From: Sphingopyxis fribergensis
GTDB lineage: Bacteria > Pseudomonadota > Alphaproteobacteria > Sphingomonadales > Sphingomonadaceae
NCBI RefSeq assembly: GCF_000803645.1
Contig: NZ_CP009122.1
Location: 1,650,501-1,714,500 of the forward strand
Reading direction: 5' to 3'
Length of the DNA: 64,000 nt
In this document: one piece after another, positions 9,896-46,297 of the stretch
How positions within the stretch are numbered: position 1 is the first letter of the stretch
Layout: each line of letters begins with the position of its first letter
Made by a program: the position numbers and the translations under genes
The notes under the pieces: model-generated
What the model saw: the letters and a program-made list of their open reading frames with translations, nothing else
Database searches by the model: none
Told to the model about the DNA's origin: nothing

Positions 9896-10435
9896 TTGTC
9901 GGAAGCAATCGCGCAGGGCCATCAGCGTGGAGACTCGTTGGAGAAGGTTTTTCTCGACGAACGTCCGCGCCTGCTTGCTTTTCTGCGACGGATCGGTGCA
10001 GCGGAGGACGCGGAGGATCTGCTTCAGGATGCCTGGATACGAATCCGGTCGTTAGACCGGCCGGTCCCTGCCGAAGCATTATCCTATCTCTATCGCATGC
10101 TGCATAATCTGATGATCGACCGCCGCCGCGCGTCACGCAGCGCCGTTCGCCGCGACGCCCAATGGGCGGACGTGTCCGGCGGCGGTGCCGATCGCTGCGT
10201 CCAGCCCGACAGCGAGCGCCGCGTGCTTGCAATCGATGAGGTCCGCGCCATCCACGAAGCGATCGATTTGCTTGGCGAACCCGCGGCAAGCATCTTTCGC
10301 CGCCATCGCCTGCACGGACAGACGCAACGCACGATCGCCGACGAACTCGATATGGGGCTCAGTACGGTCGAAAAGCATTTGCGCCGTGCCTATGCCGCGC
10401 TTCTGGAATTTCGGAAGGCGAATAACGATGGCTGA
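9896..10435 (+). CDS. FecI-type ECF sigma factor (locus A)
   Basis: 179 residues with region 2 (LLAFLRRIGAAEDAEDLLQD, then LSYLYRMLHNLMIDRRR) and region 4 (QTQRTIADELDMGLSTVEKH). The start is a TTG at 9896; no ATG lies near the expected N-terminus. First gene of the locus A operon, overlapping fecR by 8 bp. Predicted to be held by the FecR protein and released when the TonB receptor binds its ligand. Closely resembles the locus B sigma in layout. Confidence 0.9.
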   Translation: MSEAIAQGHQRGDSLEKVFLDERPRLLAFLRRIGAAEDAEDLLQDAWIRIRSLDRPVPAEALSYLYRMLHNLMIDRRRASRSAVRRDAQWADVSGGGADRCVQPDSERRVLAIDEVRAIHEAIDLLGEPAASIFRRHRLHGQTQRTIADELDMGLSTVEKHLRRAYAALLEFRKANNDG

Positions 10436-11384
10436 GACCGCGCCAAGAAAAACCTTCGAAACCTTGCGCGATGAAGCGCTCGGCTGGATTATCCGGCTAC
10501 GCGAAGGCGACGCCACCGACTGGCAGGCGTTCGAGCAATGGATGGCGGGGGATCCGCGAGCCGCCGACATTTACTGGGATCTCGCGGCGGACGATGCGGA
10601 TGTGGCCGACGCGTTGTTGCAGGACCGGCCAATCGTCCCGACTGCGGCGCAGCCGGCGCGCACAGCGAAAGCGATGTGGCTGGGCGGCGGCGTCCTCGCT
10701 CTAGCGGCATCGCTCCTTCTTTTGCTGTTTCTGCCGGGGCCGACGGTCACCTATTCCGTCGAGACGGCGCCCGGCCAAACCCGCAGTATCCCGCTGAGCG
10801 ATGGAAGCGAGATATTGCTCAACGGCGGCTCGAAAATCCAGCTCGACCGGGAAAATCCGCGCCGGGCCCGTCTCGCCGATGGCGAAGGGCGCTTTACGAT
10901 CGCGCACGACGAAACCCGGCCCTTTATCGTCGAAGTGGGCGAGGCGTCCCTGACCGACCTCGGCACCGTCTTTTCGGTGACGCGGCAAGGCGGCGAGCTT
11001 CGCGTCGCCGTGGCCGAAGGCGCGGTCCGTTATAGTCGCGGCGGCATCAGCCGCGATCTCGCCGCGGGCGATACGCTTCGGATAGGCCGCGATGGCAGGC
11101 TGGTCGCGGGCGAGATCGAGCCCGCCGATGTTGCGGCCTGGGCCGATGGGCGGTTGGCTTATGGCAGCGTCGACGTCGCAGCGGTCGCTGCCGACCTTTC
11201 GCGCGCCACCGGACTGGATGTGTCGGCCGACCCGGCCGTCGCGCGGCGTCCGTTCAGTGGCGGCTTCGCACTTGGGAAACGCGACGCCGAGACGGTACGC
11301 CGTGCGGCAAGCCTGATGGGATTGCGTATTCGCGCGAAGGGCAAGGGCTGGATATTGGAGGCGCCCGCTTCGGGTCTGGAATGA
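10428..11384 (+). CDS. FecR-type anti-sigma/sigma regulator (locus A)
   Basis: 318 residues starting MAETAPRKTF; the frame is open further upstream but inside the sigma gene. Order: N-terminal DUF4880-like helical sigma-binding part (WIIRLREGDATDWQAFEQW), one membrane helix at about 82-100, periplasmic FecR domain (SIPLSDGSEILLNGGSKIQL, LGTVFSVT, VAEGAVRY), and a C-terminal STN-like region. It would sit in the inner membrane and contact the receptor's signalling domain. Stop overlaps the receptor start by 4 bp. Confidence 0.93.
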   Translation: MAETAPRKTFETLRDEALGWIIRLREGDATDWQAFEQWMAGDPRAADIYWDLAADDADVADALLQDRPIVPTAAQPARTAKAMWLGGGVLALAASLLLLLFLPGPTVTYSVETAPGQTRSIPLSDGSEILLNGGSKIQLDRENPRRARLADGEGRFTIAHDETRPFIVEVGEASLTDLGTVFSVTRQGGELRVAVAEGAVRYSRGGISRDLAAGDTLRIGRDGRLVAGEIEPADVAAWADGRLAYGSVDVAAVAADLSRATGLDVSADPAVARRPFSGGFALGKRDAETVRRAASLMGLRIRAKGKGWILEAPASGLE

Positions 11385-13738
11385 GGGTCGGCGCCGCTAT
11401 GCTGTTGCTGGCGGCGCCTGTTGCCGCGCGGGCCGCCGACGATGCGGCGCAGATCGACGTGCCAGCGGGCCCCCTCGGCAAAGCCGTCGCCACGCTGTCG
11501 CGGCAGGCGCGCATCGACGTCGGCGTCGACGACCCGGCGCTGCACCGCATTGCGACGCCCCCCATTCGCGGAACAATGAGTGCGGAAGCCGCACTCGACA
11601 AGCTGTTGCGCGGTACGCCGGCGACCTGGCGGAGCGGGCGTAACGGGCTGTTCCATGTCGTGCGGCGACCGCGCGCCGTTGCAGTGCCGTTCTTCGCCGC
11701 GCGGCCGAAGCGTACGGAAAATCCCGTCGCCATGACCCCGCCGATCGAGATCGTCGTCACCGCATCGAAGCGCGACGCGCCGCTGGCCGATTGCCCGGCG
11801 ACCGTCGCGATCCTGTCTGGCACCAATCTGGGAGCCGCCGGCACGGTTCCTGACAGTGAAGCTATCGCGGGTGGTTTGCCGGGCGTGGGATCGACGCATC
11901 TGGGACCGGGCCGCAATCAACTGTTCGTGCGGGGCATCATCGATTCGACCTTCGCCGGCCCCGGCGAGGCGACCACCGCCCAATATCTCGACCACGCCCG
12001 GATCAATCATAATGGTCCCGACCCGGACCTTCGTCTTTATGATGTCGCGTCGGTCGAGGTGCTCGAAGGGCCGCAGGGAACCCTTTATGGTGCGGGCGCG
12101 CTCGGCGGGTTGATCCGCATCATGACCAATCGACCGGCGCTTGATCGCACCGAGGCGCGCGCCAGCGCCGGCTTTACGCATCTCGCGCACGGCGATCCGG
12201 GCGGTGACGCGGCAGCGACGCTCAATCTTCCGCTGGTCGACGGAAAGGCAGCGGTGCGCGTCGTGGGCTACGCAGTTCGGGAGGGGGGGTATATCGACAA
12301 TCCGCTGCTCGGAATTTCCAACATAAACGGCGTCTCGGTCCGTGGCGGACGCGCTGCGCTGCGGGTTGTGTCGGCGGGCTGGACGGTCGATCTTGGCGGG
12401 GTCGTGCAGTCGATCCGCGCAGACGACAGCCAATGGACCGATCGTGATGGCCCCGGACTGACCCGGTCAAGCCGGGCGCGCGAGGACTATGACGCCCATT
12501 TTCGTCAGGCGAGTGCTGCTGTCTCACGCGATCTGGGCGGCATCCAACTGGTTTCGAGTTTTGCCGCAGTGAGCCGTTCGATGGTCCAGCGATACGATAA
12601 TGGCGCGACCGCACCGCCCTTTGCCGTGACCGAACGCGATCGCTCCAGAATGATCGGTGGCGAGACGCGCCTTTCGCGGCAGGCGGACGATGGCGTCGGC
12701 TGGGTCGCCGGCCTCAGCCTCTTCGACTCCACCAGCTTGAGCCACCGCGCAAATGGCGCGGGTCTCAGCCTTGCAGAATTGCGGCAGCGAGCGGTCAATA
12801 AATCGCGCGAATGGACGCTTTTTGGCGAAGGCAGCTTCCGTCTCGCCCCCCGGTTGATCGCTACGGCGGGTTTGCGCATCAGTCAGGTGCGGCTGCAAGG
12901 CGTCGCTTGGGCAAAGGAAAGTCTGAGCGCGCTGCCGGGAAATGGCCGGCCGGTCGTGGTCGAGTTGGATCGCCGCGATCTGCGGGGACTTCCCAGTCTT
13001 GCGTTATCGCTGCGTCCGTCGAAACATCTGCTGCTGTTCGCACGATATCAGGAGGGCTTTCGGCCGGGCGGTGTCGGCGTGACCGGTCTGCAACCCGAAA
13101 TCCATCGCGGCGACCGGTTGCGATCTTGGGAGATCGGCCAGCGCCTGACCCTGCCGGGAGGCAAGGTGGAGATCCGTGCAGCGGCATCTTATGCGACTTG
13201 GGAGGGCATATTGGCTCAAGTCGTCTCGCAATCGGGCGATCTGATGACGCTGAATATCGGCGACGGCGACATCGCCGCGATCGAGGCAAGTGCGGATTGG
13301 CGTCCTGCCGCCGGGTGGAATGTGCGCGGCGGGCTCTTTCTGAGCCGCAGCCGCCTGACCCGATCCGATATCGGGACGATCGCGCTAAAAGGCGGGCGCC
13401 TGCCGAATGTTCCGAATATGGGTCTTCAGGGCAGCATCGCCCGCGAATGGGCGCTGTCCAACGGTCTTCGCGCCAATCTGGTTGCGGATATCCGATATTT
13501 CGGCGGATCGCGCATCGGGAGCGGCCCGCTGCTCGATGCGGCGCAGGGCGATTATGTCGATGACCGTATCCTCCTGCGCATCGCGGACGCCCGGCACGGG
13601 CTCAGCCTTCAAATCACCAACCTGACGGATAGCAGCGCCAATCGTTTTGCGCTCGGCACGCCTTACCGCATTTATCACCCGCAGGCGTCGCCGCAACGAC
13701 CGCGCACGATCCGCGTCGGCTTCGACGCCGCTTTTTGA
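11381..13738 (+). CDS. TonB-dependent transducer with STN signalling domain (locus A)
   Basis: 785 residues: signal peptide (about 1-19, ending ARAADD), STN domain (IDVPAGPLGKAVATLSRQAR to about residue 95), a TonB-box-like IEIVVTASKR, plug with GVGSTHLGPGRNQLFVRG and GPQGTLYGAGALGGLIRI, and a 22-strand barrel ending RVGFDAAF. An STN domain is the hallmark of FecA-type receptors that signal to FecR. Closely related to the locus B receptor, both holding the phrase GPDPDLRLYD. Substrate unknown. Confidence 0.93.
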   Translation: MRVGAAMLLLAAPVAARAADDAAQIDVPAGPLGKAVATLSRQARIDVGVDDPALHRIATPPIRGTMSAEAALDKLLRGTPATWRSGRNGLFHVVRRPRAVAVPFFAARPKRTENPVAMTPPIEIVVTASKRDAPLADCPATVAILSGTNLGAAGTVPDSEAIAGGLPGVGSTHLGPGRNQLFVRGIIDSTFAGPGEATTAQYLDHARINHNGPDPDLRLYDVASVEVLEGPQGTLYGAGALGGLIRIMTNRPALDRTEARASAGFTHLAHGDPGGDAAATLNLPLVDGKAAVRVVGYAVREGGYIDNPLLGISNINGVSVRGGRAALRVVSAGWTVDLGGVVQSIRADDSQWTDRDGPGLTRSSRAREDYDAHFRQASAAVSRDLGGIQLVSSFAAVSRSMVQRYDNGATAPPFAVTERDRSRMIGGETRLSRQADDGVGWVAGLSLFDSTSLSHRANGAGLSLAELRQRAVNKSREWTLFGEGSFRLAPRLIATAGLRISQVRLQGVAWAKESLSALPGNGRPVVVELDRRDLRGLPSLALSLRPSKHLLLFARYQEGFRPGGVGVTGLQPEIHRGDRLRSWEIGQRLTLPGGKVEIRAAASYATWEGILAQVVSQSGDLMTLNIGDGDIAAIEASADWRPAAGWNVRGGLFLSRSRLTRSDIGTIALKGGRLPNVPNMGLQGSIAREWALSNGLRANLVADIRYFGGSRIGSGPLLDAAQGDYVDDRILLRIADARHGLSLQITNLTDSSANRFALGTPYRIYHPQASPQRPRTIRVGFDAAF

Positions 13739-13783
13739 TCGAACCCCAGGATTTTTTCCCGCGCGGCGTAAGGTGTCCCTAAA

Positions 13784-13875: not shown

Positions 13876-16800
13876 GTGCAGCAGTTTTCGAGCCTCGGGA
13901 TCGCATCGCATCATCATTATCGCGCGCGCAATCGCCGCACGCGACTGGGTCTGGGGACATGCCTTGCCGGCGCCGCCGCGCTGCTGCTGACCGCGGCGCC
14001 CGCCGAGGCGCAAGCCGCGCCCGATATCTCGACGCTGCAAGCACCGCTTCACCAGGGGGCGGCACGCGCGCCTGTATCGGACGACGCCGTCGCGGAGCCG
14101 CAGGATCTGACCATCCGCATCGATGACGGGACTGCGATCGTCACCGAGGATGATTATCAGCACGGTGTCACGCTCACCAATTTTTCGGGGGGCTCGGTCA
14201 CGATCGATGCTGGAGGCGCCGCGGTCACGACAAAAGGGACGGGTGCAATCGGCGCCGTCGCGATCGCGGTCGACGGCAATGCGACGCTCAACATCGGCGA
14301 TGTGCATACATCGGGTGACAGCGCAAACGGGATCGTGGCGGGGTCGGCCAATGGCGCCGTGAGCGTGAAGGCGGGCACGGTCATCACCGAAGGGGGCGGA
14401 TCGTTCGGCATTCACGCAACGGGCTATAGCGGCCCGGTCGACGTGACGGCCGCCGCGGTGCAAACGTCGGGCTATTATGCGACCGGCATTCACGCGATGT
14501 CGAACGGCAATGTGACCATCGATGTCGGCGATGTGCTGACGACCGGCGATCATTCGGTCGGCGTGAACGGGCAGGTCGGCCAGCCGCCCGCCTTTGACGA
14601 GGAAACCGGCCTGCCGATCCTGTCGGACCCCGCCGACCTGACCATCCGGGCGGACCATGTCGAGACGCATGGCTATGCTTCGGACGGCGTGATCGCGACC
14701 AATTTTACCATGGGCAAGACGTCGGTCGACGTCGGCAATATCAAGACGTCCGGGGACAATAGCTGGGGCGCCTATGCCGGCGGCTTTGGCGACGTCTCGC
14801 TCCACGCCGGTTCCGTCGAAACGACCGGCGCCGGCTCAGCCGGCCTCGGCGCGGTCAGCTTTTATGGCGCGATCAAGGTGTCGGGCGACAGCGTGGCGAC
14901 TCGCGGCGATTTTTCCAACGGCGTCAACGTGCTGAACTACGACGCCACCAAGCCGACGACGATCGATCTCGGCAGCGTCGAAACGCACGGCAATTCGTCG
15001 ACGGGCATCTATGTCGGCGGTCCCTATTGGCCGTATAATGAAGGGCAGGACATCACGCTGACCGCCGACAAGGTGACGACGCATGGTGTCAATTCGAGCG
15101 GCGTTGCGATATTGTCGGGCGGGAATTTGACGATCGACCTTGGCGAGGTCGTCGTCGAGGGCGACCGTTCGCGCGGCGTGGCGATCGCAACGGGGTGGGG
15201 CAATCTCTCCCTCAACGTCGATAGCGTCATTACCAAGGGCGAGGCCCAATATGGCCGCGATACGATCGGCATCCGCATCGGCACCAATCATGGTTCGGTC
15301 GATGCCACGATCGGATCGGTGGAAACCAGCAGCCGCAATTCTCCCGCTATTCTGGCAAACGGCTTTTACACCGATCAGAGCTTTACGATTACCGGAAGCC
15401 TGAAGACCGACGGATATCATGCCTCCGGCTTTCAGGCCGATATCGACACGGGTTCGCTGATGCTCGATGCGGCCACGATCATCACGAAGGGCGAAGCGAG
15501 CCACGGCGTAAACGTCGGGATGCGATCGGGCGACGTCGATATCCGCACCGGATCGATCGAGACGTTCGGCAATAGCTCGTCAGGGATCATATTGCAGAGC
15601 GCAAGCTATGACGGGCAGGCGCATCATGCCGCTATCGACGCGGGATCGATCACGACGCAGGGCGAGAATTCGGCAGGGATCAACCTGCTCGCGCTGGGCG
15701 CGAACGCCGACATCAAGGCCGGCAATATCGTGACGTCGGGCAATTATTCGTCCGGCGTAACCGCCGCCGCGATCTCCGGCATCGACGCATATGGCAATAT
15801 TTTCGGCGGCGACCTGAACATCGATGTCGGCACTGTTGCAACGAGCGGTGACGACGCCCCGGGCATCGACGCGCTGGCTTATGGTGCAATCACCATCGCT
15901 GCGAAGAATGTGACGACGACAGGCGCCCGATCGACCGGCATCAGGGCGTCGGGCCTTGGCGACATCGTCATCGACGCAGGCACGATCGAAACGCAGGGCG
16001 ACCACGCCGATGGCATTTACGCGAACACCAACTTCGGCGGGGTCGCGGGCGACATAAAGATTAGCGCGGGGAGCATCACGACATCCGGGGCCGCGTCTAG
16101 CGGGATTCGCGCGGTGGCTTACGGCGGTTCGGTCGACATCAAGGCCGGGAGCGTGAAGACGAGCGGTTATGGCGCCGATGGCATTTTTGCGTGGAGCTAT
16201 ATGGGCGATGCGACGGTCGAAGCCGGTGCGGTGACGACGAGCGGCGACGCGGGCCGCGGTATCACCGCTTATTCTGGTGGCACCACGACTATTATCGCGG
16301 GCGACGTCACGACGGCAGGGAAGGGACTCACGCCCGATTCCGATGCTGGCGGCATCAAGGCGGTCGGCGCGTCAGTCATCGTCAAGGCGGGGAATGTCAG
16401 CACCAAGGGCGACTATTCGACCGGCATTTACGCCAACAGCAATTTCGTGAACGACAATGGCCAAGTCCCGCGCGACATCAGCGTCACCGCCGACAGCGTT
16501 TCGACCGAGGGCTTTGCCTCGCACGGCGTGGTCGCGATCAATAGCGCGCGGCGCGCCGACATCGATATCGACGTCGGCAGCGTGAAAACGGGCGGCGATT
16601 ATTCACTCGGCATCTATGCTTCCGCCCCGGCCGGCAGCATCTCGGTGAAGGCGGGTAGCGTCGAGACGGCCGGCAAGCAGTCGGCTGGCGTCGTGGCGAT
16701 CAGCGAATATGGCGACATCGGCGTCGACATTGGCACGATCAAGACCAGCGGCGAAGGCGCGGCGGGCATTTATACCTATGCCGGCGGTGCGCCGAAGACT

Positions 16801-19569
16801 GGCGAGGCGGCGACCACGATCCGCGCGGGTTCGATCACGACCAGCGGCGACTATTCGTCGGGCGTGACGGCGATCGCCAACGGCGAGGACATCGCGATCG
16901 ATATCGGTGTCGGGACCGTCTCAACGGAGGGTCTCGCGTCGCGCGGCGTCTTTGCATACGGCCTTGGCGACCTGACGGTGGCCGCGGAGACGATCAGCAC
17001 GAAGGGTGAGGGCGCGAGCGGGATCGAAGCCTTCTCCTTCTATGGAGACATCAAGGTCAGCGCGGGCAAGGTGTCGACCGAAGGCAATCTTGCTACGGGC
17101 ATTTATGCGTCGACCCTGATCGGCGACGTCGTCGTCGAGGCGGGCGACATCGCGACGCAAGGCGACTTCTCCTCCGGCGTGCGTGCCTTCAGCCAGACGG
17201 GGGACATTTCCGTCACCACCACGGGCGATGTCACAACCGAGGGCGCCAATTCCTATGGCATCCTTGCTTTCGGCAATGGCAATATCACGGTCGACAACCA
17301 GGGCAGCGTCGAGACGCGTGGCGAGTTCGGCCATGGCCTTTATGCGCTCGGACGCGGCGAGGGTTTCACCACTGTGACCAATAGCGGATCGGTGACGGTG
17401 ACGGGCGCCGGGACATCGGCGATCCGTGCGCTGGGATCCTATCTCGGCGGCGGCGTCCAGGTCGTCTCCACTGGAAGTGTCAGCGCGGCGGGCGACTATG
17501 CCGCCGGCATCCTCGGTGTGATTCCGCGCAGTCGCGGCGGCGGCGGACCCGACGCTCCCAAGGTCGATATCGATGCTGCCACCGTGACCGTGACAGGTGA
17601 TTCGACGATTGGCATTATCGGCCTGAATTACGCGGGTGATGTGCATATTCGCGCCGACTCGATTTCGGTCGACGGAAAAGGCATCGGTATTTCCGCGATT
17701 GCTCTCGATTCGATTGACGTCGAGGCGGGCGACATAACATCGGGCGGCCGCGGCGTAATCCTGATCAGCGGCGGCGGTTCGACGCTGACGGTGACTGGCG
17801 ATATCGTTGCCCGCGATCATGTGGCGGTGGAGATGGGCGCCGGCACCGGCCAAGCCGTCCTCAACGTCGCGAAAGGCGCTTCGGTGATCGGCGGCGGCAA
17901 GCGGAACCCCGCCGACGACCCCTATACCGGTCCGGGCAATGCGATCATCCTCGGCTCCGATTCTGGGGTCGTGGTCAACAATGCGGGGACGATACGCAAC
18001 GTCGGCGATCGCTACACGATCTTCGTGACCGACCAATATGCCGGGGACTGGGAGCCGGTTCCGGGCGCGGGCAGCCTGATCAACAACAGCGGCGTGCTGG
18101 AGGGCAATTTGCGCCTCACCGCCGGCGAAGACGTCATGATCAATTCGGGCGTGTTCGAGGCGACGAAGGACAGCATCTTCGGCGGCGGCGAGGACCGTTT
18201 CGAGAATAGCGGCGTGGTCCGGATCGGCAGCGCGGGTGTCACGACGGCCGCGCGTGCCGCCGCTGCGGGTACGAGCGTCACCTTCGCCGGCCTCGAGCGG
18301 TTCGAGAACAGCGGGACGATCGACATGCGTAACGGCATTGCCGGCGACCGGCTGGTGCTGACCGGCGACTTCGTGGGATCGGATGCCTCGACGCTGGCCG
18401 TCGATGTCGGCGGCGCAAGCGCCGACCAACTGGTTGTCGAGGGCGCGGCGACGGGGGCGACCAGCGTGGTTGTCGCGACGCTTCCGGGCAAGGCCACTCT
18501 GTTCGCCGGGCCGGTCGCGATCATCAAGGTCGGCGCCGGGTCGGCGGCCGATGCCTTCAAGCTCGACAAGGCCGACATGGGCTTCATCCAGTATGATATG
18601 CGCTATGACGCGGTTACTGGCACCTACAGCCTCGGCACGCAGGTCGGCAGCTCAGCCTATCGCCTCGCCAAACTCAACGAAGCGGCGCAGGCCATCTGGG
18701 ACAAATCGGCGCAGGCGTGGAGTACGCACATGGCCGAACTGCGCGATGCCAATGGCAACGGCAACCGGCTGTGGGGCCAGATGTTCGGCGGTGTGGTCGA
18801 TCGCGACGGCGCGATCGACGGTGCGCCGCTGGATTATCGCCAGGACTTTTTCGGTGCGCAGGCGGGTTACGATCTTGGCGGCAGCGAGGGCGAAGACAGC
18901 GCTGCGATCTTTGGCGTTACGGGCGGTTATCTCAGCTCGAAGCAACGGTTCAAGGGCGGCGACGAGCGCGCCGACTTCGATGCACTCAACCTTGCGGGTT
19001 ATGGCAGCTATCGCGGCAAACATGTCTTTGCGAACCTGCTCGCGCAATATAGCCATTACTGGATCGGCGCGCGCGGCGGCGTCGGCACCGAGCGCTGGTC
19101 GGACAAGGTCGGCGGCGATGCTTATGGCGTGCAGGGCGAAGTCGGGATGCGGCTTGGGTCGGAGAAATTCTTCGTCGAACCCGTTGCGACGCTCGCCTGG
19201 CAGACGAGCTCGATCGATTCGATCGAGGCGTTCAGCCACCGGATCGAGTTCGACGACAATAGCGCGTTCACGGGGAAGATCGGGGCACGACTTGGTGCCG
19301 CGATCGGCAAAAGCGAAGGGACACAGGCGGTGCTTTATGCACGCGGCAATTATGTCCACGCATTCGATGGAAAGGCGGGCCTGCTCTTCTCGAGCGGTGG
19401 CGTCAGCCAATCGATCGTGACGCCGCAGATCGGCGATTATGGCGAAGCGGCAATCGGGGTGAACATCCTGTCGAAGGGGCCGGTAAGCGGCTTTATCGAG
19501 GGGGATGCGACCGTCGGCAAGGGGGCCACGGGCGGCGGCGGCCGCGTCGGCATCCGCTTCAAATTCTGA
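13876..19569 (+). CDS. Giant beta-solenoid autotransporter (locus A)
   Basis: 1,897 residues from a GTG start preceded by AGGGAG. Long signal peptide (residues 1 to about 46, with a basic stretch then an alanine/leucine core ending AEAQA). From about residue 85 to about 1330 the passenger is a tandem array of imperfect units of roughly 32-35 residues, each like VDIKAGSVKTSGYGADGI; this is the composition of a right-handed beta-solenoid. A junction region follows, and the C-terminal 280 residues (from RLWGQMFGG) form the type V translocation barrel ending RVGIRFKF. No protease motif is apparent in the passenger. Sits between the TonB transducer and the TIGR03032 gene. Confidence 0.93.
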   Translation: MQQFSSLGIASHHHYRARNRRTRLGLGTCLAGAAALLLTAAPAEAQAAPDISTLQAPLHQGAARAPVSDDAVAEPQDLTIRIDDGTAIVTEDDYQHGVTLTNFSGGSVTIDAGGAAVTTKGTGAIGAVAIAVDGNATLNIGDVHTSGDSANGIVAGSANGAVSVKAGTVITEGGGSFGIHATGYSGPVDVTAAAVQTSGYYATGIHAMSNGNVTIDVGDVLTTGDHSVGVNGQVGQPPAFDEETGLPILSDPADLTIRADHVETHGYASDGVIATNFTMGKTSVDVGNIKTSGDNSWGAYAGGFGDVSLHAGSVETTGAGSAGLGAVSFYGAIKVSGDSVATRGDFSNGVNVLNYDATKPTTIDLGSVETHGNSSTGIYVGGPYWPYNEGQDITLTADKVTTHGVNSSGVAILSGGNLTIDLGEVVVEGDRSRGVAIATGWGNLSLNVDSVITKGEAQYGRDTIGIRIGTNHGSVDATIGSVETSSRNSPAILANGFYTDQSFTITGSLKTDGYHASGFQADIDTGSLMLDAATIITKGEASHGVNVGMRSGDVDIRTGSIETFGNSSSGIILQSASYDGQAHHAAIDAGSITTQGENSAGINLLALGANADIKAGNIVTSGNYSSGVTAAAISGIDAYGNIFGGDLNIDVGTVATSGDDAPGIDALAYGAITIAAKNVTTTGARSTGIRASGLGDIVIDAGTIETQGDHADGIYANTNFGGVAGDIKISAGSITTSGAASSGIRAVAYGGSVDIKAGSVKTSGYGADGIFAWSYMGDATVEAGAVTTSGDAGRGITAYSGGTTTIIAGDVTTAGKGLTPDSDAGGIKAVGASVIVKAGNVSTKGDYSTGIYANSNFVNDNGQVPRDISVTADSVSTEGFASHGVVAINSARRADIDIDVGSVKTGGDYSLGIYASAPAGSISVKAGSVETAGKQSAGVVAISEYGDIGVDIGTIKTSGEGAAGIYTYAGGAPKTGEAATTIRAGSITTSGDYSSGVTAIANGEDIAIDIGVGTVSTEGLASRGVFAYGLGDLTVAAETISTKGEGASGIEAFSFYGDIKVSAGKVSTEGNLATGIYASTLIGDVVVEAGDIATQGDFSSGVRAFSQTGDISVTTTGDVTTEGANSYGILAFGNGNITVDNQGSVETRGEFGHGLYALGRGEGFTTVTNSGSVTVTGAGTSAIRALGSYLGGGVQVVSTGSVSAAGDYAAGILGVIPRSRGGGGPDAPKVDIDAATVTVTGDSTIGIIGLNYAGDVHIRADSISVDGKGIGISAIALDSIDVEAGDITSGGRGVILISGGGSTLTVTGDIVARDHVAVEMGAGTGQAVLNVAKGASVIGGGKRNPADDPYTGPGNAIILGSDSGVVVNNAGTIRNVGDRYTIFVTDQYAGDWEPVPGAGSLINNSGVLEGNLRLTAGEDVMINSGVFEATKDSIFGGGEDRFENSGVVRIGSAGVTTAARAAAAGTSVTFAGLERFENSGTIDMRNGIAGDRLVLTGDFVGSDASTLAVDVGGASADQLVVEGAATGATSVVVATLPGKATLFAGPVAIIKVGAGSAADAFKLDKADMGFIQYDMRYDAVTGTYSLGTQVGSSAYRLAKLNEAAQAIWDKSAQAWSTHMAELRDANGNGNRLWGQMFGGVVDRDGAIDGAPLDYRQDFFGAQAGYDLGGSEGEDSAAIFGVTGGYLSSKQRFKGGDERADFDALNLAGYGSYRGKHVFANLLAQYSHYWIGARGGVGTERWSDKVGGDAYGVQGEVGMRLGSEKFFVEPVATLAWQTSSIDSIEAFSHRIEFDDNSAFTGKIGARLGAAIGKSEGTQAVLYARGNYVHAFDGKAGLLFSSGGVSQSIVTPQIGDYGEAAIGVNILSKGPVSGFIEGDATVGKGATGGGGRVGIRFKF
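14225..17870 (+). repeat. Array of ~33-residue (about 100-bp) coding repeats in the autotransporter passenger
   Basis: The translated units alternate a beta pair (DIxVxAGxVxT) with SGDxSxGIxA, giving a period near 33 residues over some 1,200 residues. The unit spacing is irregular and the DNA copies are diverged, so this is an old protein-level repeat and not a recent tandem duplication. Confidence 0.8.
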
Positions 19570-19584
19570 TCCAGTCCAACCTTT

Positions 19585-19613: not shown

Positions 19614-19627
19614 CTGCATGAGCGAGC

Positions 19628-36121: not shown

Positions 36122-37807
36122 ATGATGCTCGACCTTGACGACGTGGACGGCACAATCCGGCGCCGGACCGAGATATGTGTGATTGGCGCCGGAGCGGCGG
36201 GGATCGCGCTGACGCGGCGTCTGCTCGCTGCGGGGCATGAGGTGCTGCTTCTCGAAAGCGGCGGCCGGGATTTCGAGGCGGCGACCGCCGACCTCAACGC
36301 CGGCTCCAACATCGGCGAAGACTATTATCCGCTCCACGACGCGCGAATGCGCTTCTTCGGCGGCACGACCGCGATATGGGGCGGGCGCTGCGCCGAACTC
36401 GATCCCATTGATTTCGAGCGCCGCGACTGGGTTCCCCATTCCGGCTGGCCGATCGGTCGGGATGATCTGGCGCCCTATTATGCGCAAGCGCGTCCGATGT
36501 TCGGCCTTTCGGATCGCCGTTTCGAGGTCGCGGACCTGCGCGCCGCGGGCGTGCCTGTCCCGCAATTCAGGGATCACCTTCTGCACACACCGATCTGGAC
36601 CTTCGATCCGCGCTTCAACCGCTTTACCCTCGATGCCTGCGCCGACATGCAAGCACATCCCCGGTGCCACATCATTTGCCACGCGAGCGTCGTGGGCATC
36701 GCGCAGCGTGCGGGTTCCGTGCAGTGCCTTGAGGCACGGTCGCTGAAGGGTGGGCGGGTGATGGTGATCGCCGACATCGTCGTGCTGGCCGCGGGTGGCA
36801 TAGAAAATGCGCGGCTTCTCCTCGCCTCGCACATTGGCAACGACAATGATCAGGTCGGCCGCTACTTCATGGAACACCCGCACGCGCGCGGCGGCCGCAT
36901 CGTGGGCGGCGACAGCTGGAATCTGCTCAAATCCTTCGCACGGCGCCACCGCGTCGCCGGGCAGGATGTCGCGGCACTCGTAACGCCAGCCGCCGCACTC
37001 CAGCGGCGCGAGGGTATATTGAACAGCTCGCTGACGATCGTAGCCCGCCAACCGGCGCGCGCTGCACAATTTGTCGGCATGCGCGCTTACGGCAGCCTCA
37101 AGCACGATATCGCCCCGACGAGGCGGGGACGCGCGCTCTGGATGGCGACGAAAAAGGCCGCGAACTGGGCGCAGCAGCATATCGATCCGGCACGCCCCTG
37201 GTTACTGCACAAGGCGGGATTAGCCGATATCGCGCTCCTGGTTCGCGCTGAGCAGGCCCCGAACCCCGAAAGTCGCATTACGCTTGGGAGCGAGATCGAT
37301 GCTCTGGGTGTCCGGCGGGTCAATCTCGATTGGCGGTTATCGGATCTCGACAAACGGAGCGTGACGGGATTGGTTCGGGCGCTGGATGAAGAAATAAGCC
37401 GGTTGGAAATAGGGCGGGTCGAGGCCGCGGACTGGCTCGCCGAAGATGGGCCGAACTGGCAAACCGATCCGCTGATCTCTTCGCACCCGATCGGCGGTTA
37501 TCATCATATCGGGACAACTCGGATGTCGTACACTCCGCGCACGGGCGTGGTCGATGCGGATGGACGCGTTCACGGCGTCAGCAATCTCTATATTGTGGGT
37601 TCCTCGACCTTTCCAACCGCAGGTTGGGCAAATCCCACGCTGACGATCGTCGCGCTTGCCTTGCGAACGGCCGACCGCATATCGGCCATGCTGGCCAAGC
37701 GCCACCGAGGATCGGAAACGTCCCGGGTCACTCTGCCTATCCCGTTCTCGGTAATGAGGCGACCCCCGGCGTGCTTGGATGCGCCGGCTAACGACCCCCG
37801 ATTCTGA
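36122..37807 (+). CDS. GMC-family FAD-dependent oxidoreductase
   Basis: 561 residues. The FAD motif GAGAAGIALTRRLL near the N-terminus, GGTTAIWGGR, IENARLLLAS and the C-terminal HPIGGYHHIGTTRMS ... GWANPTLTIVALALRTAD (substrate-side His and Asn) are the GMC signature. No signal peptide. Its last 20 bp overlap the 3' end of the convergent locus B TonB receptor. It may act on a sugar, sterol or alcohol linked to that receptor, but only proximity suggests this. Confidence 0.92.
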   Translation: MMLDLDDVDGTIRRRTEICVIGAGAAGIALTRRLLAAGHEVLLLESGGRDFEAATADLNAGSNIGEDYYPLHDARMRFFGGTTAIWGGRCAELDPIDFERRDWVPHSGWPIGRDDLAPYYAQARPMFGLSDRRFEVADLRAAGVPVPQFRDHLLHTPIWTFDPRFNRFTLDACADMQAHPRCHIICHASVVGIAQRAGSVQCLEARSLKGGRVMVIADIVVLAAGGIENARLLLASHIGNDNDQVGRYFMEHPHARGGRIVGGDSWNLLKSFARRHRVAGQDVAALVTPAAALQRREGILNSSLTIVARQPARAAQFVGMRAYGSLKHDIAPTRRGRALWMATKKAANWAQQHIDPARPWLLHKAGLADIALLVRAEQAPNPESRITLGSEIDALGVRRVNLDWRLSDLDKRSVTGLVRALDEEISRLEIGRVEAADWLAEDGPNWQTDPLISSHPIGGYHHIGTTRMSYTPRTGVVDADGRVHGVSNLYIVGSSTFPTAGWANPTLTIVALALRTADRISAMLAKRHRGSETSRVTLPIPFSVMRRPPACLDAPANDPRF

Positions 37808-40142
37808 TGCCGAGGCTGACACGGCGGGGCGTTTGCGGGACAAAAAGATCTGATTCGGCCGGTTGGGCGAGCGACCCGAGCGCGAAGCGGTTTCCGGCGG
37901 CGTCGAAAAGATTGGAAACGCCGAGATGGAGTTTGGCGCTGCCCAATTTCAGCGACGCGTCGAGATCAACATCGGAAAAGCCGCCTTGCTCCCGCCCGAG
38001 TTCGGGGCCGATGCCCAGCCGCGACCGGCCGGTGTGGCGCAGCGTCGCCGATAATCGATAGGGATTTTTTGCTGAAGACGGACTATCGTATTGGACGGCC
38101 AGCCGGGCGTTCATGTCTGGAATATTGGGCAAGCGCCCCTCGGCGACGATGATGTGGCTCGGTTCCGCGGCGTTGACGATGGCCCGGTTCATCGTCACGG
38201 CGCCGTTCAGTGTCAGGCATTCGGACAAGCGCAATTGCGCATTCGTCTCGATCGTCAATGTCCTCGCATCGCCGATATTCGCGGCCGTCAGATAGCCGGC
38301 ATGGTCGATGATATCGGCCTGCACGTTGCGCCAGCGGCCCGCCGATAAGCTCAAGGCCCCGGTCAGCGTCCGACCTTCGCCGTCGGGACGGCGCACCGCT
38401 GCCTCCCACGCGGAATAGTGATCGCCAGACAGCGCGATGAAACCGGCAGATGATGCCGCTGCGGTCGGCGGGCGATAGCTTTCGGCATAGCGAACAAGCA
38501 ACTGTATGTCGCTGGGCAGCGTCAGCAAGGCCGATGCGCCGGGAAGTATCTTCCATCCCGCGTCGCTCCAGTCGAAAGGGGCCTCTGGGGAATTCGCGCC
38601 CGACATGTGCAGACCCCGGCCGCGCCATCGCGCCGCCCGTGCGCCGATCGAGAGGGCGAGGGGACCGATTGCCTCCGACGCTTCTCCGAACAGGATATAT
38701 TCGCGTATCGAGGCTGCGGTGTTTGTTTCGAACGGTGCCTCGCTCCGGTAAAGCAACGACGAGGAAAAACGGGTCCGACTATCGACCATAGACCCGCCGA
38801 CGAGCCAGCCGTTGCCCGCTGATCCCGAGCGGCTGACCCGAATTTCGGCCGAACTGACGTCCGACATCTCGCGTCGGGCGAGGGCCAGCGTGTTGGGAAG
38901 CGGCTCGCTTGCGTCGAAAATATCGCGCAGGCGCGCGTGCGAATGCGACAAGTTCGCCGCGATATCGACCCCTTCTTGCTCGCCGCGGAGCGTCGTCGAT
39001 ACCAGGCGGAAGCGGTTCGAGTAAGGCTGCGCAATGGCGGCCGCCCGCGCCAAAGGACCGACGCGGCGGTCGACATAGCCCGCATCGCGGCCCTCGATAT
39101 CCTGCCAGACGCTGAGCATCTCGGCGCGCCAGGCACCGTCAGGCGCGACGGCCAGCGCGGCCCGGCCTCCGGATATGTCGAGCCGGTTGCTGTTGATGAC
39201 GCCCCGCGCAACATCGTCGATATAGCCGCCTTCGCGCACCCGATAACCGACGAGGCGGACGGCGCCCTCGCTCCACCCGAGCGGGAGATTCACCATCGCG
39301 GCGGCTTCCGCCCCCAGCGCCCCGCCCTTGATGGCCGAGGTCGACAGGATAGCGTACAACTGCGTGTGGTCAGGGTCGGGCTGGTTGGGTTCGATCCGCA
39401 TGATCCCGCCGAGCGAACCCGCGCCATAAAGTGTGCCCTGCGGTCCGAGCAGAATTTCGGTGCGGGCGATGTCATATAGGCGAAGATCGGGGTCGGGCCC
39501 CGAATAGTTGAGGCGCGCTTCGCCAAGATATTGCCCGACTATCGCCTGTGTATGTCCGCTGAAGCTGGAATCGCCGACCCCGCGCAGGAACAGCTTGTCG
39601 CGGCCGGGCCCCAGATGGGTCGAACTGAGCGATGTTCCGGCGCGTTCGATCGCTTCGGTGCCGCGGAATTCGGCTTGGGCAAGATCATCCGCCTCGATGG
39701 TCTGAACAATGCCCTGATATTGTGATCGGCTCGTCTGTCGCTTGCTTGCGGTGACGATGATCTCGGCCCTGGGTTGCATCTTTTGAATTTTGGGCGCGGG
39801 GAGGGCGGTCAGGTTCGCGCTTCGTCGCGGTCTTCGGCGGGGCGCGGGAACGAGGCGGAAACTGGAGGAATCGAGCACGACCACGTCGACCTCCAGGCCC
39901 CGAACCATCCTGCGCAGCGCCTGATCCGCTGTCATCCTGCCACGGATCTTGCCAATTTTCAGATCGGCCATCGACGGATCGGCCAGCGCGATGCTCGACC
40001 GGGTTTGTGCGCCGAGCGCCCGCAGACCGGCTTTTAACGTGCCGGCTTGAATCTCGATCCACGTCATGTCTCGGGCGTGCGCGGGACTCCCCAGCGCGAG
40101 GGCGGCGCCCGCAGCGGCGGCGATGCCGTAACCGCGCCTCAT
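37788..40142 (-). CDS. TonB-dependent transducer with STN signalling domain (locus B)
   Basis: 784 residues from MRRGYGIAAAAGAALALGSPAHA (signal peptide). STN domain (IEIQAGTLKAGLRALGAQTR to about residue 95), TonB-box-like AEIIVTASKR, plug with SSTHLGPGRDKLFLRGVGDSSF and GPQGTLYGAGSLGGIMRI, then the barrel. Shares GPDPDLRLYD, ARxNYSGP/ARINHNGP and other phrases with the locus A receptor, so they are paralogues. Start overlaps the fecR stop by 4 bp. The C-terminus (GIRIGGR) lacks the usual final phenylalanine, which is slightly unusual. Confidence 0.92.
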   Translation of the reverse strand: MRRGYGIAAAAGAALALGSPAHARDMTWIEIQAGTLKAGLRALGAQTRSSIALADPSMADLKIGKIRGRMTADQALRRMVRGLEVDVVVLDSSSFRLVPAPRRRPRRSANLTALPAPKIQKMQPRAEIIVTASKRQTSRSQYQGIVQTIEADDLAQAEFRGTEAIERAGTSLSSTHLGPGRDKLFLRGVGDSSFSGHTQAIVGQYLGEARLNYSGPDPDLRLYDIARTEILLGPQGTLYGAGSLGGIMRIEPNQPDPDHTQLYAILSTSAIKGGALGAEAAAMVNLPLGWSEGAVRLVGYRVREGGYIDDVARGVINSNRLDISGGRAALAVAPDGAWRAEMLSVWQDIEGRDAGYVDRRVGPLARAAAIAQPYSNRFRLVSTTLRGEQEGVDIAANLSHSHARLRDIFDASEPLPNTLALARREMSDVSSAEIRVSRSGSAGNGWLVGGSMVDSRTRFSSSLLYRSEAPFETNTAASIREYILFGEASEAIGPLALSIGARAARWRGRGLHMSGANSPEAPFDWSDAGWKILPGASALLTLPSDIQLLVRYAESYRPPTAAASSAGFIALSGDHYSAWEAAVRRPDGEGRTLTGALSLSAGRWRNVQADIIDHAGYLTAANIGDARTLTIETNAQLRLSECLTLNGAVTMNRAIVNAAEPSHIIVAEGRLPNIPDMNARLAVQYDSPSSAKNPYRLSATLRHTGRSRLGIGPELGREQGGFSDVDLDASLKLGSAKLHLGVSNLFDAAGNRFALGSLAQPAESDLFVPQTPRRVSLGIRIGGR

Positions 40143-41074
40143 TTTCCGGGTGACAGCGTCCACCCATCGCCGTCGCGGCGCACATCGACACCAAGCAGCG
40201 GTCCAAATCGCACCATGCTGTGTTCGACGTCGATATCGAGCTGGATCGTCGCACTGATCCGCATATTCGCAGCGCCCGGTGAAACCGAAACAGGGGCTCC
40301 CAGTTCGCGCGAAAGATCGGCCGCGACGGTTTGGAGCGGCGCATTATCGTAATCGAGCCTTGGGGTGGCCCAGCGGCCGATCGCTTCCGTCGCGATCGAA
40401 CCGCGAACCACGCGATTGCCAGTTGCAACAAGCTGCTCGCCCGGACGCAGTTCGGCCCGGATATTCCCGGCCTGAAACGCGACCGCGCCTTCGGCGACGG
40501 CGACCTCGGTGCTGTCGCCTTTTCGAGTGACGGTGAAGCGCGTTCCCAGATTCTGGACCATGCCGCCATCGAAAGTGACGCGAAACCGCGTGCGCGGATC
40601 GTGGACGACATCGAATAGTGCCCCGCCGGTGACAAGCTCCGCCGAGCGCGGCTTGTCGCTGTCGAGCCGCAACCGCGTCGCTTCGTTCAGGACGATCCGG
40701 CTGCCGTCGGCGAGCGATATATGCTTTCGCTGTCCCTCTCGTGTCGCGACTTCATACGTGCCGTCGGGTCGGAGCGTGAGGAAGGCGAGCATGGCAAATG
40801 CCGCCGCGGCGCCGGTCGCGAACAAGCCGGTCCGCCGCCATCGTTTCGGCGGGTCGCTGGCGGCATCGGCGCGGGAAATAAACGGCGGCGGGTCAGCCGC
40901 CAGGTCGTCGGCAATCGCGGCGTCGAGTGCCATGAGCCGCTGGTAATGGGCCGCGTGCGCGGCGTCGGCTTCGAGCCATATGGTAAACCCATCCCAGTCG
41001 TCGAACAGAGGGTCGCGCTGACGGGCGAGCCAGTCGATAGCGGCGTTTTGCGGATCGGGCCCATGTTCAGCCAT
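40139..41074 (-). CDS. FecR-type sigma regulator (locus B)
   Basis: 311 residues: N-terminal DUF4880-like region (IDWLARQRDPLFDDWDGFTI), one membrane helix at about 83-101, FecR domain (HISLADGSRIVLNEATRLRL, LGTRFTVTRKGD, VAEGAVAF) and a C-terminal STN-like tail. Overlaps the sigma gene by 8 bp and the receptor by 4 bp. Same role predicted as in locus A. Confidence 0.93.
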   Translation of the reverse strand: MAEHGPDPQNAAIDWLARQRDPLFDDWDGFTIWLEADAAHAAHYQRLMALDAAIADDLAADPPPFISRADAASDPPKRWRRTGLFATGAAAAFAMLAFLTLRPDGTYEVATREGQRKHISLADGSRIVLNEATRLRLDSDKPRSAELVTGGALFDVVHDPRTRFRVTFDGGMVQNLGTRFTVTRKGDSTEVAVAEGAVAFQAGNIRAELRPGEQLVATGNRVVRGSIATEAIGRWATPRLDYDNAPLQTVAADLSRELGAPVSVSPGAANMRISATIQLDIDVEHSMVRFGPLLGVDVRRDGDGWTLSPGK

Positions 41075-41615
41075 TGTCTTCTTCCTTCAACGCCGCAATC
41101 GCGCGATAGGCGCGCTGAATGTCCTTTTCCACCGCGCTCAGGCTGAGGTGATAGCGTTCTGCAATGATGCGCTGGCTCAGCCCTTCGACGCGAAAGAGAA
41201 AGAAGATTTCCTGCACGCGCGTGCCACACGCGGCGAGACGGCTTCGGGCTCGCGCGATTTCCTCCTTTGCGGCCAGGCCAGCCTCCGCGGCGCTCGCCAC
41301 GCCGACAAGATGTGCCTCTCCCCAGGCTGCTTCGCGCGCTATATTGCGGGCGTCCGTGCGATAGTCGTTGAGCATCAGATTGTTCGCCGCGCGATAAAGA
41401 TAGCTGAGCGGATCGAAGATCGGCCCGGCCGGATTCGATGCGATCCGAACCCATAGCTCCTGAACAAGGTCTTCGGCACGGGCGCCCGCGCCGCGGGCGC
41501 GCAGGAAGCGCAGCAGCCGGTCGCGGTGCGTGAGGTAGACGGCTTCGAGACCAGTGGGAGGCGCGTCGGCGGCTTTGGTTTTCGCCCGCTCGGTCACGAC
41601 TTGCCCGCGTGCCAT
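41067..41615 (-). CDS. FecI-type ECF sigma factor (locus B)
   Basis: About 182 residues from MARGQVVTERAK, one base after the TIGR03032 stop. Region 2 is RLLRFLRARGAGARAEDLVQE and LSYLYRAANNLMLNDYR; region 4 is LSQRIIAERYHLSLSAVEKD. The gene follows TIGR03032 so closely that in this locus the sigma may be transcribed from the autotransporter promoter, making a positive-feedback arrangement possible. Confidence 0.92.
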   Translation of the reverse strand: MARGQVVTERAKTKAADAPPTGLEAVYLTHRDRLLRFLRARGAGARAEDLVQELWVRIASNPAGPIFDPLSYLYRAANNLMLNDYRTDARNIAREAAWGEAHLVGVASAAEAGLAAKEEIARARSRLAACGTRVQEIFFLFRVEGLSQRIIAERYHLSLSAVEKDIQRAYRAIAALKEEDNG

Positions 41616-41616
41616 C

Positions 41617-42684
41617 TCAGGCCATTTCGCCAAGCGCGCGAACGGCGAGGACGGGCAGCGAGTCGAAGGTGAGCATCCGGTCCGCCTCCGCGCTGCGCGG
41701 TGCCACCGCCGAGGGGCAGAGAATTTCCGGCATTGCGACGATGTCGAAAAGCTCGCTCTGTGGTCCGTGAAAACGCAGCCATTCTATAATGTTACCGCTC
41801 GCGAGTTCGACCACCATCACCCCGCACCATGGGGTGCCGCCGCCTATGCTGATCTGCTTGTCGATTGGCAAGCCCGCGAATGTTTCCTCGCGTGGTTTGG
41901 AAAGCGTCACGAGCGCGTGCCCGTTGTGGATCGAGAGGCCGCGCAGGAAGCCGGGGCAGAAGGCGACATCCCGGCGCTCGCTGGTATCGAGATTAAAACG
42001 GACGATCTGACCGCGTCCGCTTTCGAGGAAGAACAAATTGCGTCCGACCAGCCGCGGCGAGTGCGGCATCGACAGCCCGTCTGCCACGGTCGCCCCGGTC
42101 GCAACATCGATGATCAGCCCGCCGTCGCGGCGCTGATCGCGCCAGCCGCCCACGATGTCGCTGCGTCCCGCCGCGGTGACGAAAGCGGGCTCGCCATCGG
42201 CGCCGAAGGCCACGCCGTTGAGGTGGCAGCGATCCTCGGGGGTGAGGCGGCTGATGAAATCGGGCTTCCAGAGCGGGCGGAAACTGTGCCGGATGCTGGG
42301 GGTGGCGAGACAGGAATAGGCAGTGTTGACGAAGACGATCTGCCCGCCGCGCGTCACCCCCATTTCGTGGATATCGAGATCGCCCGTGATCTGCGCATTG
42401 CGGGGCACGAAGACCGCGTCATGGCCGGCATCGTCCTGTTCCCCCGGTGGCAGGATATTCTCGAGCCGCCATATCTCGCGCCGGCCCGCTAGATAGAGCC
42501 GCCCCGGCCGCCAAGCGAGCCCCATGGCACGGTCGAAGGCGCAGCGGCTGACCGCCACTGCGCCTTCGGGATGCGAGCCCACCAGGACCAGAAGCCCCGT
42601 CTGATAGGATGTGCAGGCGAAGCTGAGCCGGTTGTCGCGCAGCCAACCGGCCAGTCCGCGCGACGCGGATATGTCGTCCGTCAA
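41617..42684 (-). CDS. TIGR03032-family protein (locus B)
   Basis: 355 residues from a TTG start, with GGAG eight bases upstream; no in-frame ATG is near. Lacks the 45-residue tail of the locus A copy. Core motifs match: TSYQTGLLVLVG, WRPGRLYLA, VPRNAQITGDLDIHE, EDRCHLNGVAF, SMPHSPRLVG, ESGRGQIVRF and FCPGFLRGLS. No signal peptide, so cytoplasmic. Sits 37 bp after the autotransporter and directly before the sigma gene. Function of the family unknown to me. Confidence 0.86.
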   Translation of the reverse strand: MTDDISASRGLAGWLRDNRLSFACTSYQTGLLVLVGSHPEGAVAVSRCAFDRAMGLAWRPGRLYLAGRREIWRLENILPPGEQDDAGHDAVFVPRNAQITGDLDIHEMGVTRGGQIVFVNTAYSCLATPSIRHSFRPLWKPDFISRLTPEDRCHLNGVAFGADGEPAFVTAAGRSDIVGGWRDQRRDGGLIIDVATGATVADGLSMPHSPRLVGRNLFFLESGRGQIVRFNLDTSERRDVAFCPGFLRGLSIHNGHALVTLSKPREETFAGLPIDKQISIGGGTPWCGVMVVELASGNIIEWLRFHGPQSELFDIVAMPEILCPSAVAPRSAEADRMLTFDSLPVLAVRALGEMA

Positions 42685-42721
42685 ATCCGCATCTCCGTTC
42701 GAATAGGGCGCTCCCGCATCG

Positions 42722-45700: not shown

Positions 45701-46297
45701 GCCCGAAACCACTTTGATGCCGTCGGACGCGAAGCCATTGGTCGAGACCGATCCCGCGTGGATTGTGACGGTGCCCGGGCCGCCATGCTCGACGACCATC
45801 CCGCTCGAATAATCGCCGACTGTGCGCACCGATCCGACATTGATCGTCGTCGAGTCATTGGGGTTCGCTACCGTGATCCCGGCCGCGATCTCGCCAGGCG
45901 TAACCACCTCGGTCGACACGCTTGCCAGGTCGATCAGGATGTCGCCTTCTGCTTCGACGACCACGCCGGTGGCATCACGGGTGCTGATGGACGTGCCAGC
46001 GCCGTTGATGGCGACCGAACCTTTGCTTCCATATTCCGAAATGGCGATGATACCCGCGTCGCCCTTTTCAGGGTTCAGCGACAGCCCGTCCTGCAGATTG
46101 AGCGTGATGTTGCCGGGGGCGTCATAGCGGATGCCCTCGGGATAGTCGGCGCCGTCTGACGGGCAAAAAACCTCGCCGTCGACCAACGTTCCACAGGCGT
46201 CCTGCGCTTGCGCGGCGGCGGTGTTGGCCCAGAGCAGCGTGGCGAGCGCCCCCATGCTGACAGTCGCAAGGTTGCGGCGTGCGCGGCTTGAAATCAT
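42722..46297 (-). CDS. Large repeat-rich autotransporter (locus B)
   Basis: 1,191 residues from MISSRARRN with AAGGGAAG before it; the frame is open 137 codons upstream but that part is not coding. Signal peptide ends TAAAQAQD. The passenger (about 60-650) repeats units like VSTEGxxSxGIxA, fewer and more diverged than in locus A. The last 285 residues (from RLWGSLQGG) form the autotransporter barrel ending GRVGFRIGF. Unusual for this class, it carries cysteine pairs: one near the mature N-terminus (CGTLVDGEVFC) and one near residue 640 (CVLPDVGDGSPNPC). Confidence 0.92.
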   Translation of the reverse strand: MISSRARRNLATVSMGALATLLWANTAAAQAQDACGTLVDGEVFCPSDGADYPEGIRYDAPGNITLNLQDGLSLNPEKGDAGIIAISEYGSKGSVAINGAGTSISTRDATGVVVEAEGDILIDLASVSTEVVTPGEIAAGITVANPNDSTTINVGSVRTVGDYSSGMVVEHGGPGTVTIHAGSVSTNGFASDGIKVVSGGDTEIVVDTIEGNGDYIWGINATNGVLWEEQMLAGVTSISVGRVNLSGNYNVGVFVDSESSAIVNVGDLNIDGFGNAGVAVTALDTAYVSVENATFTGEQSGGIFAVAGWGNAYARVGTLTAENGGGIGAQSFDGAADVDAGSVHVKGDQAIGAQAASTYGSASLRVQDVSTDGVLATGIRAEATRGEVAIIAGKVVTNGDASTGIFAMGRTNDVRVLGSLETKGERSVGILSATTRGDNFVLTNGRVSTQGESADALWVVGRYGSATILATGEISTIGDHSAGIRAVGEDGQVSIEAQKVTTEGAGANGIHARTQFVEFYSGHIPGEPVPFTGNIDIRAANVAVSGEASMGISARGLGSATILAGNVSAVSGAAIDTDMIENVTLDLRGEIRSQDANAVMARGENVSIEIGADARIVGGQNGLVIDAIGQRCVLPDVGDGSPNPCPNPGKDTQDGQIGVAAVAPPVDFPAFAGNAKIVNRGTIEAGEGFAIRVDRGAIALENSGTITGGLQFAGGDDLFDNAGLFVVTKDSDFGSGTDVLRNSGTLRAGGDVRLNGLERFENSGAIDLRNEKTGDVLTISGDYVGQGDAVVYLDIDGAGRASDRLVIEGSASGSTAIALTTDPTEAKITAAKGVLLVEVEGQSTADAFVLADATRDIGLVRYALTYDAASGSYSLVGRAGAGTFRQLGALQAADHMWDTSADIWRAQGLSRRDALMGDLGTVPRLWGSLQGGRATRDWTITDGDDAIDLDYRQTQQGGQIGYDLFGSGGETGALRVGLTGGYATSKLRYRGGGERIELSTANVGIYAAYVGERLFANLLVKYDHHDVELDTTAFASAHDLDGSTWGADGEVGMRFGSTGMFVEPAVGLAWSATDVDSLGTATQRLEFETSKQVKARIGARFGGTSHFANGGALTLYASGNAVRIFGDDYGLTVTAGESQRIEGDRLGTFGEGRVGLSYRAAGGFEAFAEGQGEIGSGYDGLTGRVGFRIGF

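Follow-up and report, generated by a model that had tools for sequence, protein, structure and literature searches.

Two five-gene loci in a 64,000-nucleotide stretch of the Sphingopyxis fribergensis genome (contig NZ_CP009122.1, positions 1,650,501 to 1,714,500; the window) each bring together two broader gene linkages: that of the TIGR03032/DUF4915 family (DUF4915 below) with giant exoproteins, and that of cell-surface signalling sets with autotransporters. Each locus holds five co-directional families, namely an extracytoplasmic function (ECF) sigma factor, a FecR anti-sigma factor, a TonB-dependent transducer, an autotransporter and DUF4915, and this five-gene module is the overlap of the two linkages. 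Loci A (plus strand) and B (minus strand) lie 17 kb apart. The order at A is sigma factor, FecR, transducer, autotransporter and DUF4915, with intergenic gaps of 19, -4, 137 and 58 bp; at B it is autotransporter, DUF4915, sigma factor, FecR and transducer, with gaps of 37, -17, -8 and -25 bp. With all gaps between -25 and 137 bp, each locus looks like one operon. The original prediction of a five-family module present twice holds for all ten genes. Its description of B as a circular permutation of A matches the gene order, but the loci really differ in the flank of the autotransporter-DUF4915 block to which the signalling genes are attached.

The pairing of DUF4915 with giant exoproteins recurs in the sampled neighborhoods. 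Genomes with a match above the TIGR03032 cut-off number 11 of 80 in the genus (S. fribergensis included), 31 of 298 in the family, 45 of 385 in the class and 32 of 398 in the phylum, the four samples overlapping. We read 108 stretches, none longer than 20 kb, around many, not all, of the TIGR03032 matches, as well as 80 named loci that reach 21 kb at most. Since these 80 are the best of at least 586, the named loci lean to close relatives. Together the stretches and named loci provide 174 distinct DUF4915 genes, the two of the window excluded, with 158 scorable for neighbors; DUF4915 frames shorter than 300 residues or at a contig end were omitted from this scoring, and locus L055, where the DUF4915 frame was overlapped, was dropped as well. 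Within two genes on the same strand, 59 of the 158 have an autotransporter-like giant (defined by a match to a local barrel model, or by at least 900 residues ending in F or W), 25 have an RTX/FG-GAP giant (defined by patterns), nine have another giant and 65 have none. At the same position, none of 126 unrelated background genes of similar size, taken from the same stretches at least five genes away from DUF4915, has an autotransporter-like or RTX/FG-GAP neighbor, and three have another giant. The proposed grouping of TIGR03032 with giant exoproteins is thus borne out. When, more crudely, any neighbor of at least 900 residues within 400 bp is counted, receptors included, the figures are 96 of 188 for DUF4915 versus 38 of 483, summed over five sample sets, and 7 of 9 versus 6 of 25 in the genus set alone. 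A Pfam scan of 103 intact C-termini from neighbors of at least 700 residues gives 59 with an autotransporter barrel, 14 with FG-GAP and 13 with RTX repeats; the remainder are mixed, some plainly unrelated. At L032 (9105-11567), two tandem DUF4915 genes stand next to a single 2038-residue protein with RTX and FG-GAP-like repeats.

A quick tree of the 174 DUF4915 genes, subject to long-branch warnings, requires the autotransporter state to change at least 21 times, and branches with good support force 15 of these changes, which argues that the pairing with autotransporters is not one inherited accident. The motif G[IV]xA has a median of 1.28 per 100 passenger residues in 58 DUF4915-linked giants ending in F or W versus 0.21 in 24 autotransporters without DUF4915, and [TS]xGxx[SA]xG[IV] a median of 0.46 versus 0; both motifs were picked after the passengers of the window had been viewed, the rows are related, and the RTX/FG-GAP partners stand outside this count. 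At loci without an autotransporter by the local barrel model, the 131 same-strand near neighbors include five OEP, four ABC and three HlyD members (Pfam), possibly parts of type I exporters. No single recurring enzyme family appears among these 131 neighbors, in the 25 families listed of 228. A phage tail collar domain (PF07484) occurs in five of the neighbors, and GT41 glycosyltransferase in three.

The second linkage, of FecR genes with autotransporters, exceeds chance and is separate from the DUF4915 pairing. We surveyed 20 genomes hand-picked among DUF4915 bearers, including six in which a full signalling set with DUF4915 had already been read and excluding G162 and G211, each with FecR and a receptor some 9 kb away from a fragmentary DUF4915 (L068, L069). 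A FecR match lies within 12 kb of 24 of the 84 autotransporters, versus 3.1 expected (84 of 88 autotransporter rows were used, four below cut-off being left out, and all 114 FecR rows were kept); for 16 of the 24, no DUF4915 is nearby. Reading identified full sigma-FecR-receptor sets in 13 of the 24 loci, eight of them including DUF4915 and five lacking an intact copy (L284, L285, L286, L287 and L292); the remaining FecR-linked loci are counted by the FecR match alone, save L291, which was read. The suggestion that signalling genes group with autotransporters therefore stands. S. fribergensis itself has a third such operon, in the order autotransporter, sigma factor, FecR, receptor and without DUF4915 (L284, 5246-12653), and a highly similar operon is present in G1067 (L292). 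Eight of the nine same-genus genomes among the 20 carry a similarly long autotransporter that has a FecR match no more than 2 kb away. In G195 (L285) and G225 (L286), sigma factor, FecR, receptor and autotransporter follow one another, again without DUF4915.

From the side of DUF4915, the scripted count finds that only 7 of the 174 genes have sigma factor or FecR in their fetched flanks, or eight with L136, which escaped the script when the gene caller dropped an overlapping frame; the count is a lower bound, as the flanks end about 10 kb from DUF4915. The share of DUF4915 genes near FecR in the 20 genomes (8 of 26) is biased upward by the six known positives. These counts bear on the possibility that the module is one dedicated five-component system in which DUF4915 is part of the signalling itself, as the original prediction of a single system implied. 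Both window loci carry all five families, as do eight loci outside the window with intact DUF4915. Nevertheless, DUF4915 is found mostly apart from sigma/FecR sets, and the same genomes hold signalling-autotransporter operons that lack it, such as L284. A single dedicated five-part system is therefore not supported, and we regard DUF4915 as very improbable as a signalling component.

Phylogeny also bears on the two linkages. In a tree of autotransporter barrels (L206, which has a wrong start and one stop, was left out), the four signalling-linked autotransporters without DUF4915 split from all 16 DUF4915-linked ones with support of 100/100, and these 16 include 11 with signalling genes and five without. 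A topology placing all 15 signalling-linked autotransporters on one side of a branch and the five others on the other is not rejected (p 0.263). The concatenated signalling tree does not have the split between DUF4915-linked and DUF4915-less members. It thus seems that DUF4915 tracks a type of autotransporter and the signalling block tracks autotransporters generally. A single origin of the DUF4915-bearing signalling modules, a group named after a first tree had been viewed, is rejected in the approximately unbiased test with a long outgroup (p 0.0076) and not rejected with no outgroup (p 0.056).

The DUF4915 protein of locus A is modelled confidently as a six-bladed beta-propeller (predicted local distance difference test score, pLDDT, 89.8). 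The family has invariant His, Cys, Asp and Arg residues, which in the model seem to ring one mouth of the channel. No signal peptide is visible by eye in this protein. The propellers of SMP-30/gluconolactonase, strictosidine synthase and YWTD type resemble the model in fold, with 10-14% identity in the matches named; neither DUF4915 A nor B has a Pfam match to the SMP-30/strictosidine-synthase families. Sequence models (Pfam, NCBIfam) find no glycosyltransferase domain in either protein, and the 50 structural matches listed for DUF4915 include no glycosyltransferase or known passenger-modifying enzyme, a result that excludes nothing. The family is large (7,946 significant matches among 7,997 candidates scored), and no paper under its TIGR, DUF, Pfam or InterPro names was found in a full-text literature search, most subscription papers lying outside it. 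Its recurrent place beside autotransporters and other giant exoproteins suggests a concrete hypothesis for this family that can be tested simply.

On balance, it is probable that the signalling set controls the autotransporter within one operon and that a cytoplasmic DUF4915 acts on the passenger before export. By analogy with their families, a ligand would bind the outer-membrane receptor, and the receptor's signalling domain would relay to FecR, which would free the sigma factor. The layout of the operon suggests that the sigma factor controls the autotransporter: it would transcribe its own operon, and receptor, autotransporter and DUF4915 would be made together. DUF4915 would then work in the cytoplasm on the nascent exoprotein, as the observed pairing and the apparent lack of a signal peptide suggest, and the exoprotein would leave the cell and stand on its surface as a beta-solenoid of adhesin- or shield-like type. 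The five-gene set would be a composite of two broader linkages, joined on different sides in A and B.

As to its action, DUF4915 most likely works as an enzyme, modifying the passenger itself or a small group that it carries, and less likely as a chaperone. A non-catalytic chaperone or holdase in the cytoplasm, keeping the giant protein unfolded or timing its hand-over to Sec or a type I exporter, would suit partners that are alike in size and secretion and not in sequence, and that seem to use both type V and type I routes, with OEP, ABC and HlyD genes among the near neighbors. Invariant His, Cys, Asp and Arg at an apparent channel mouth better suit an active or metal site; these residues are the reason for ranking modification above chaperoning, and we consider the chaperone rather unlikely. 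Still less likely is a metabolic, lactonase-like propeller enzyme that handles a surface ligand and is merely co-expressed with the exoprotein: a common propeller fold does not establish function, and the near-neighbor scan shows no recurring catabolic or uptake family. Since the commonest partner of DUF4915 is a giant exoprotein, both modification and chaperoning rank above a metabolic or signalling role. We also put forward, tentatively, the wider idea that DUF4915 founds a new class of cytoplasmic propeller enzymes whose substrates are giant exoproteins, solenoid autotransporters and RTX/FG-GAP proteins alike, covalently modified before export by any secretion route, and that sphingomonads placed this maturation step and its substrate under cell-surface signalling; this is possible rather than probable.

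Several observations weigh against modification of a signal-controlled passenger by DUF4915. The 65 of 158 DUF4915 genes counted above lack a large exoprotein gene on their strand within two genes, and some sit among housekeeping-type genes, for example at L037 and L060. The partners vary in architecture (solenoid autotransporter, FG-GAP, RTX, cadherin-like), and as a result no common substrate motif is seen among them. In the 20 chosen genomes, 62 of the 84 autotransporters have no DUF4915 near, and DUF4915 is therefore no general export factor. Nor did a sequence search find a solved relative (best E 0.18), and we know of no reaction for the family. In the B-type operon of G1090 (L287, 7049-7592), DUF4915 is broken into two fragments of 110 and 117 residues and the autotransporter frame is open; the genome holds an intact A-type DUF4915 elsewhere, and the broken copy also fits plain dispensability. 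On the signalling side, L291 places FecR beside a 4764-residue autotransporter of the S. fribergensis genome with no sigma factor or receptor by the models used, and some FecR frames reach 1190-1229 residues, so FecR matches are not all signalling sets. Alignment of the upstream regions, in three operons of A type and three of B type, shows conserved blocks, in which no sigma-dependent promoter was identified.

Iron-citrate signalling by FecI-FecR-FecA uses the same three families in the order sigma factor, FecR, receptor. Loci A and B differ from it in having an autotransporter and DUF4915 in the same operon as the signalling set. A full-text literature search, with most subscription papers outside it, found no paper joining FecI-like regulators and autotransporters; for autotransporters in Sphingopyxis it gave a single review, on cold-active enzymes. 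The heptosyltransferases TibC and AAH are cytoplasmic and are encoded beside their autotransporter.

The nearest known logic appears to be that of PUMA3/VreI for the signalled operon and that of TibC/AAH for DUF4915. In the part of the PUMA3 report seen (PMC2729926), overproduction of the sigma factor of the VreA-VreI-VreR system of Pseudomonas aeruginosa raises the transcript of a TpsA exoprotein, and a PUMA3-type cluster is present four times in R. palustris and Janthinobacterium, where tpsA homologues follow three of these copies. Like loci A and B, PUMA3 as described there has genes for sigma and anti-sigma factors of Fec type close to the gene for a large secreted exoprotein; unlike them, its exoprotein is a two-partner (type Vb) substrate and not a type Va autotransporter, and VreA has a signalling domain yet is predicted to be periplasmic, in contrast to the outer-membrane receptors here. 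That part of the report mentions no DUF4915. As for the second parallel, the available part of PMC4358343 describes TibC and AAH, with TibA and AIDA-I, as bacterial autotransporter heptosyltransferases, TibC forming a dodecamer. As presented there, they resemble the role proposed for DUF4915 in being separate proteins that act on the passenger of certain autotransporters; TibC is a heptosyltransferase, whereas DUF4915, predicted to be a beta-propeller, matches no glycosyltransferase and is of another fold and family. Surface-signalled exoprotein operons are thus already precedented by PUMA3, and the DUF4915 propeller is the testable added element. In the 20 genomes, autotransporters recur within signalling operons, a layout that widens that precedent.

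The two loci are related at a distance. All five pairs are homologous by blastp, including the receptor and TIGR03032 pairs already suspected to be paralogous: 34-36% identity for the sigma factors, 35% for FecR, 33% for the receptors, 55-56% for DUF4915 and 33% over 1181 columns for the autotransporters. Sigma factor A shares 81% identity with its orthologue in G1067, and DUF4915 B shares 91% with its orthologue in G1089. The identical five families and a separation of only 17 kb would fit a recent duplication, tandem or segmental, with later rearrangement of the gene order, but A and B are far closer to these outside operons than to each other; such a duplication is rejected, and we give it a negligible chance. 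Five-gene sets in the order of A occur in G1090, G1067, G1079, G225, S. kyeonggiensis (L204) and Novosphingobium (L205), and sets in the order of B in G1089 and G1090; in the set of G294, the autotransporter is on the opposite strand. A profile search of the 5.2-Mb S. fribergensis genome finds 15 FecR matches and two DUF4915 genes. These low numbers in the genome and the recurrence of five-gene sets in other genomes argue that the arrangement is more than chance.

Table 1. Genes of loci A and B in the window, with the matches that identify them.
Locus	Gene	Position	Strand	Evidence
A	ECF sigma factor	9896..10435	+	Pfam Sigma70_r2 2.2e-10, r4_2 3.4e-9
A	FecR anti-sigma factor	about 10455..11384 (longer ORF from 10185)	+	Pfam FecR 3e-18; 1.8e-18 from 10455 start
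A	TonB-dependent transducer, N-terminal signalling domain	11381..13738	+	Plug and barrel; residues 22-99 match 2m5j
A	Autotransporter, 1897 residues, C-terminal barrel, solenoid-like repeats by eye	13876..19569	+	TIGR01414 1.8e-36
A	DUF4915/TIGR03032, predicted six-bladed beta-propeller	19628..20833	+	PF16261 1.2e-120; model pLDDT 89.8
B	Autotransporter, 1191 residues	42722..46297	-	TIGR01414 1.1e-38; start from orthologue alignment
B	DUF4915/TIGR03032	41617..42684	-	PF16261 1.8e-112
B	ECF sigma factor	41067..41633	-	Pfam Sigma70_r2 3.1e-8, r4_2 5.7e-8
B	FecR anti-sigma factor	40139..41074	-	Pfam FecR 4.7e-20
B	TonB-dependent transducer	37788..40163	-	Plug and barrel; Pfam STN weak (0.19); by eye like receptor A

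The assignments of the ten genes are given in Table 1. Pfam identifies sigma regions 2 and 4, the FecR domain and the receptor plug and barrel at both. The STN signalling domain is below the Pfam cut-off in both receptors (E 0.0038 in A, 0.19 in B). Receptor A, the only one compared with solved signalling domains, matches that of HasR (E 2e-4) and, more weakly, those of FoxA, FpvA and PupB, in support of the STN-type domain predicted for it. Both autotransporters have the C-terminal barrel (TIGR01414 and PF03797) and F as last residue, and a Sec signal peptide is apparent by eye in each; as to an autochaperone region, B matches AC_1 (3.3e-10), and in A the Pertactin model scores 21.9 bits against a cut-off of 22. 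The open reading frame (ORF) of autotransporter B opens at 46708, and the start at 46297 was chosen to match the starts of two orthologous ORFs. DUF4915 A and B score 391.8 and 383.6 bits with TIGR03032, against a curated cut-off of 251.5.

Further features lie near the two loci. Another Fec-type set occupies 53492-58568, with an STN-clear receptor (minus strand), a sigma factor at 57034-57576 and FecR at 57573-58568 (both plus strand); no autotransporter or DUF4915 was seen adjoining it. About 3 kb past locus B, at 49260-49889 (minus strand), there is a 209-residue ORF with a phage-integrase N-terminal SAM-like domain. At 23317-23424 (minus strand), the window matches the Rfam family Atu_At1 (RF02496), described there as a Rhizobiales small RNA, with 104.2 bits against a gathering score of 60.

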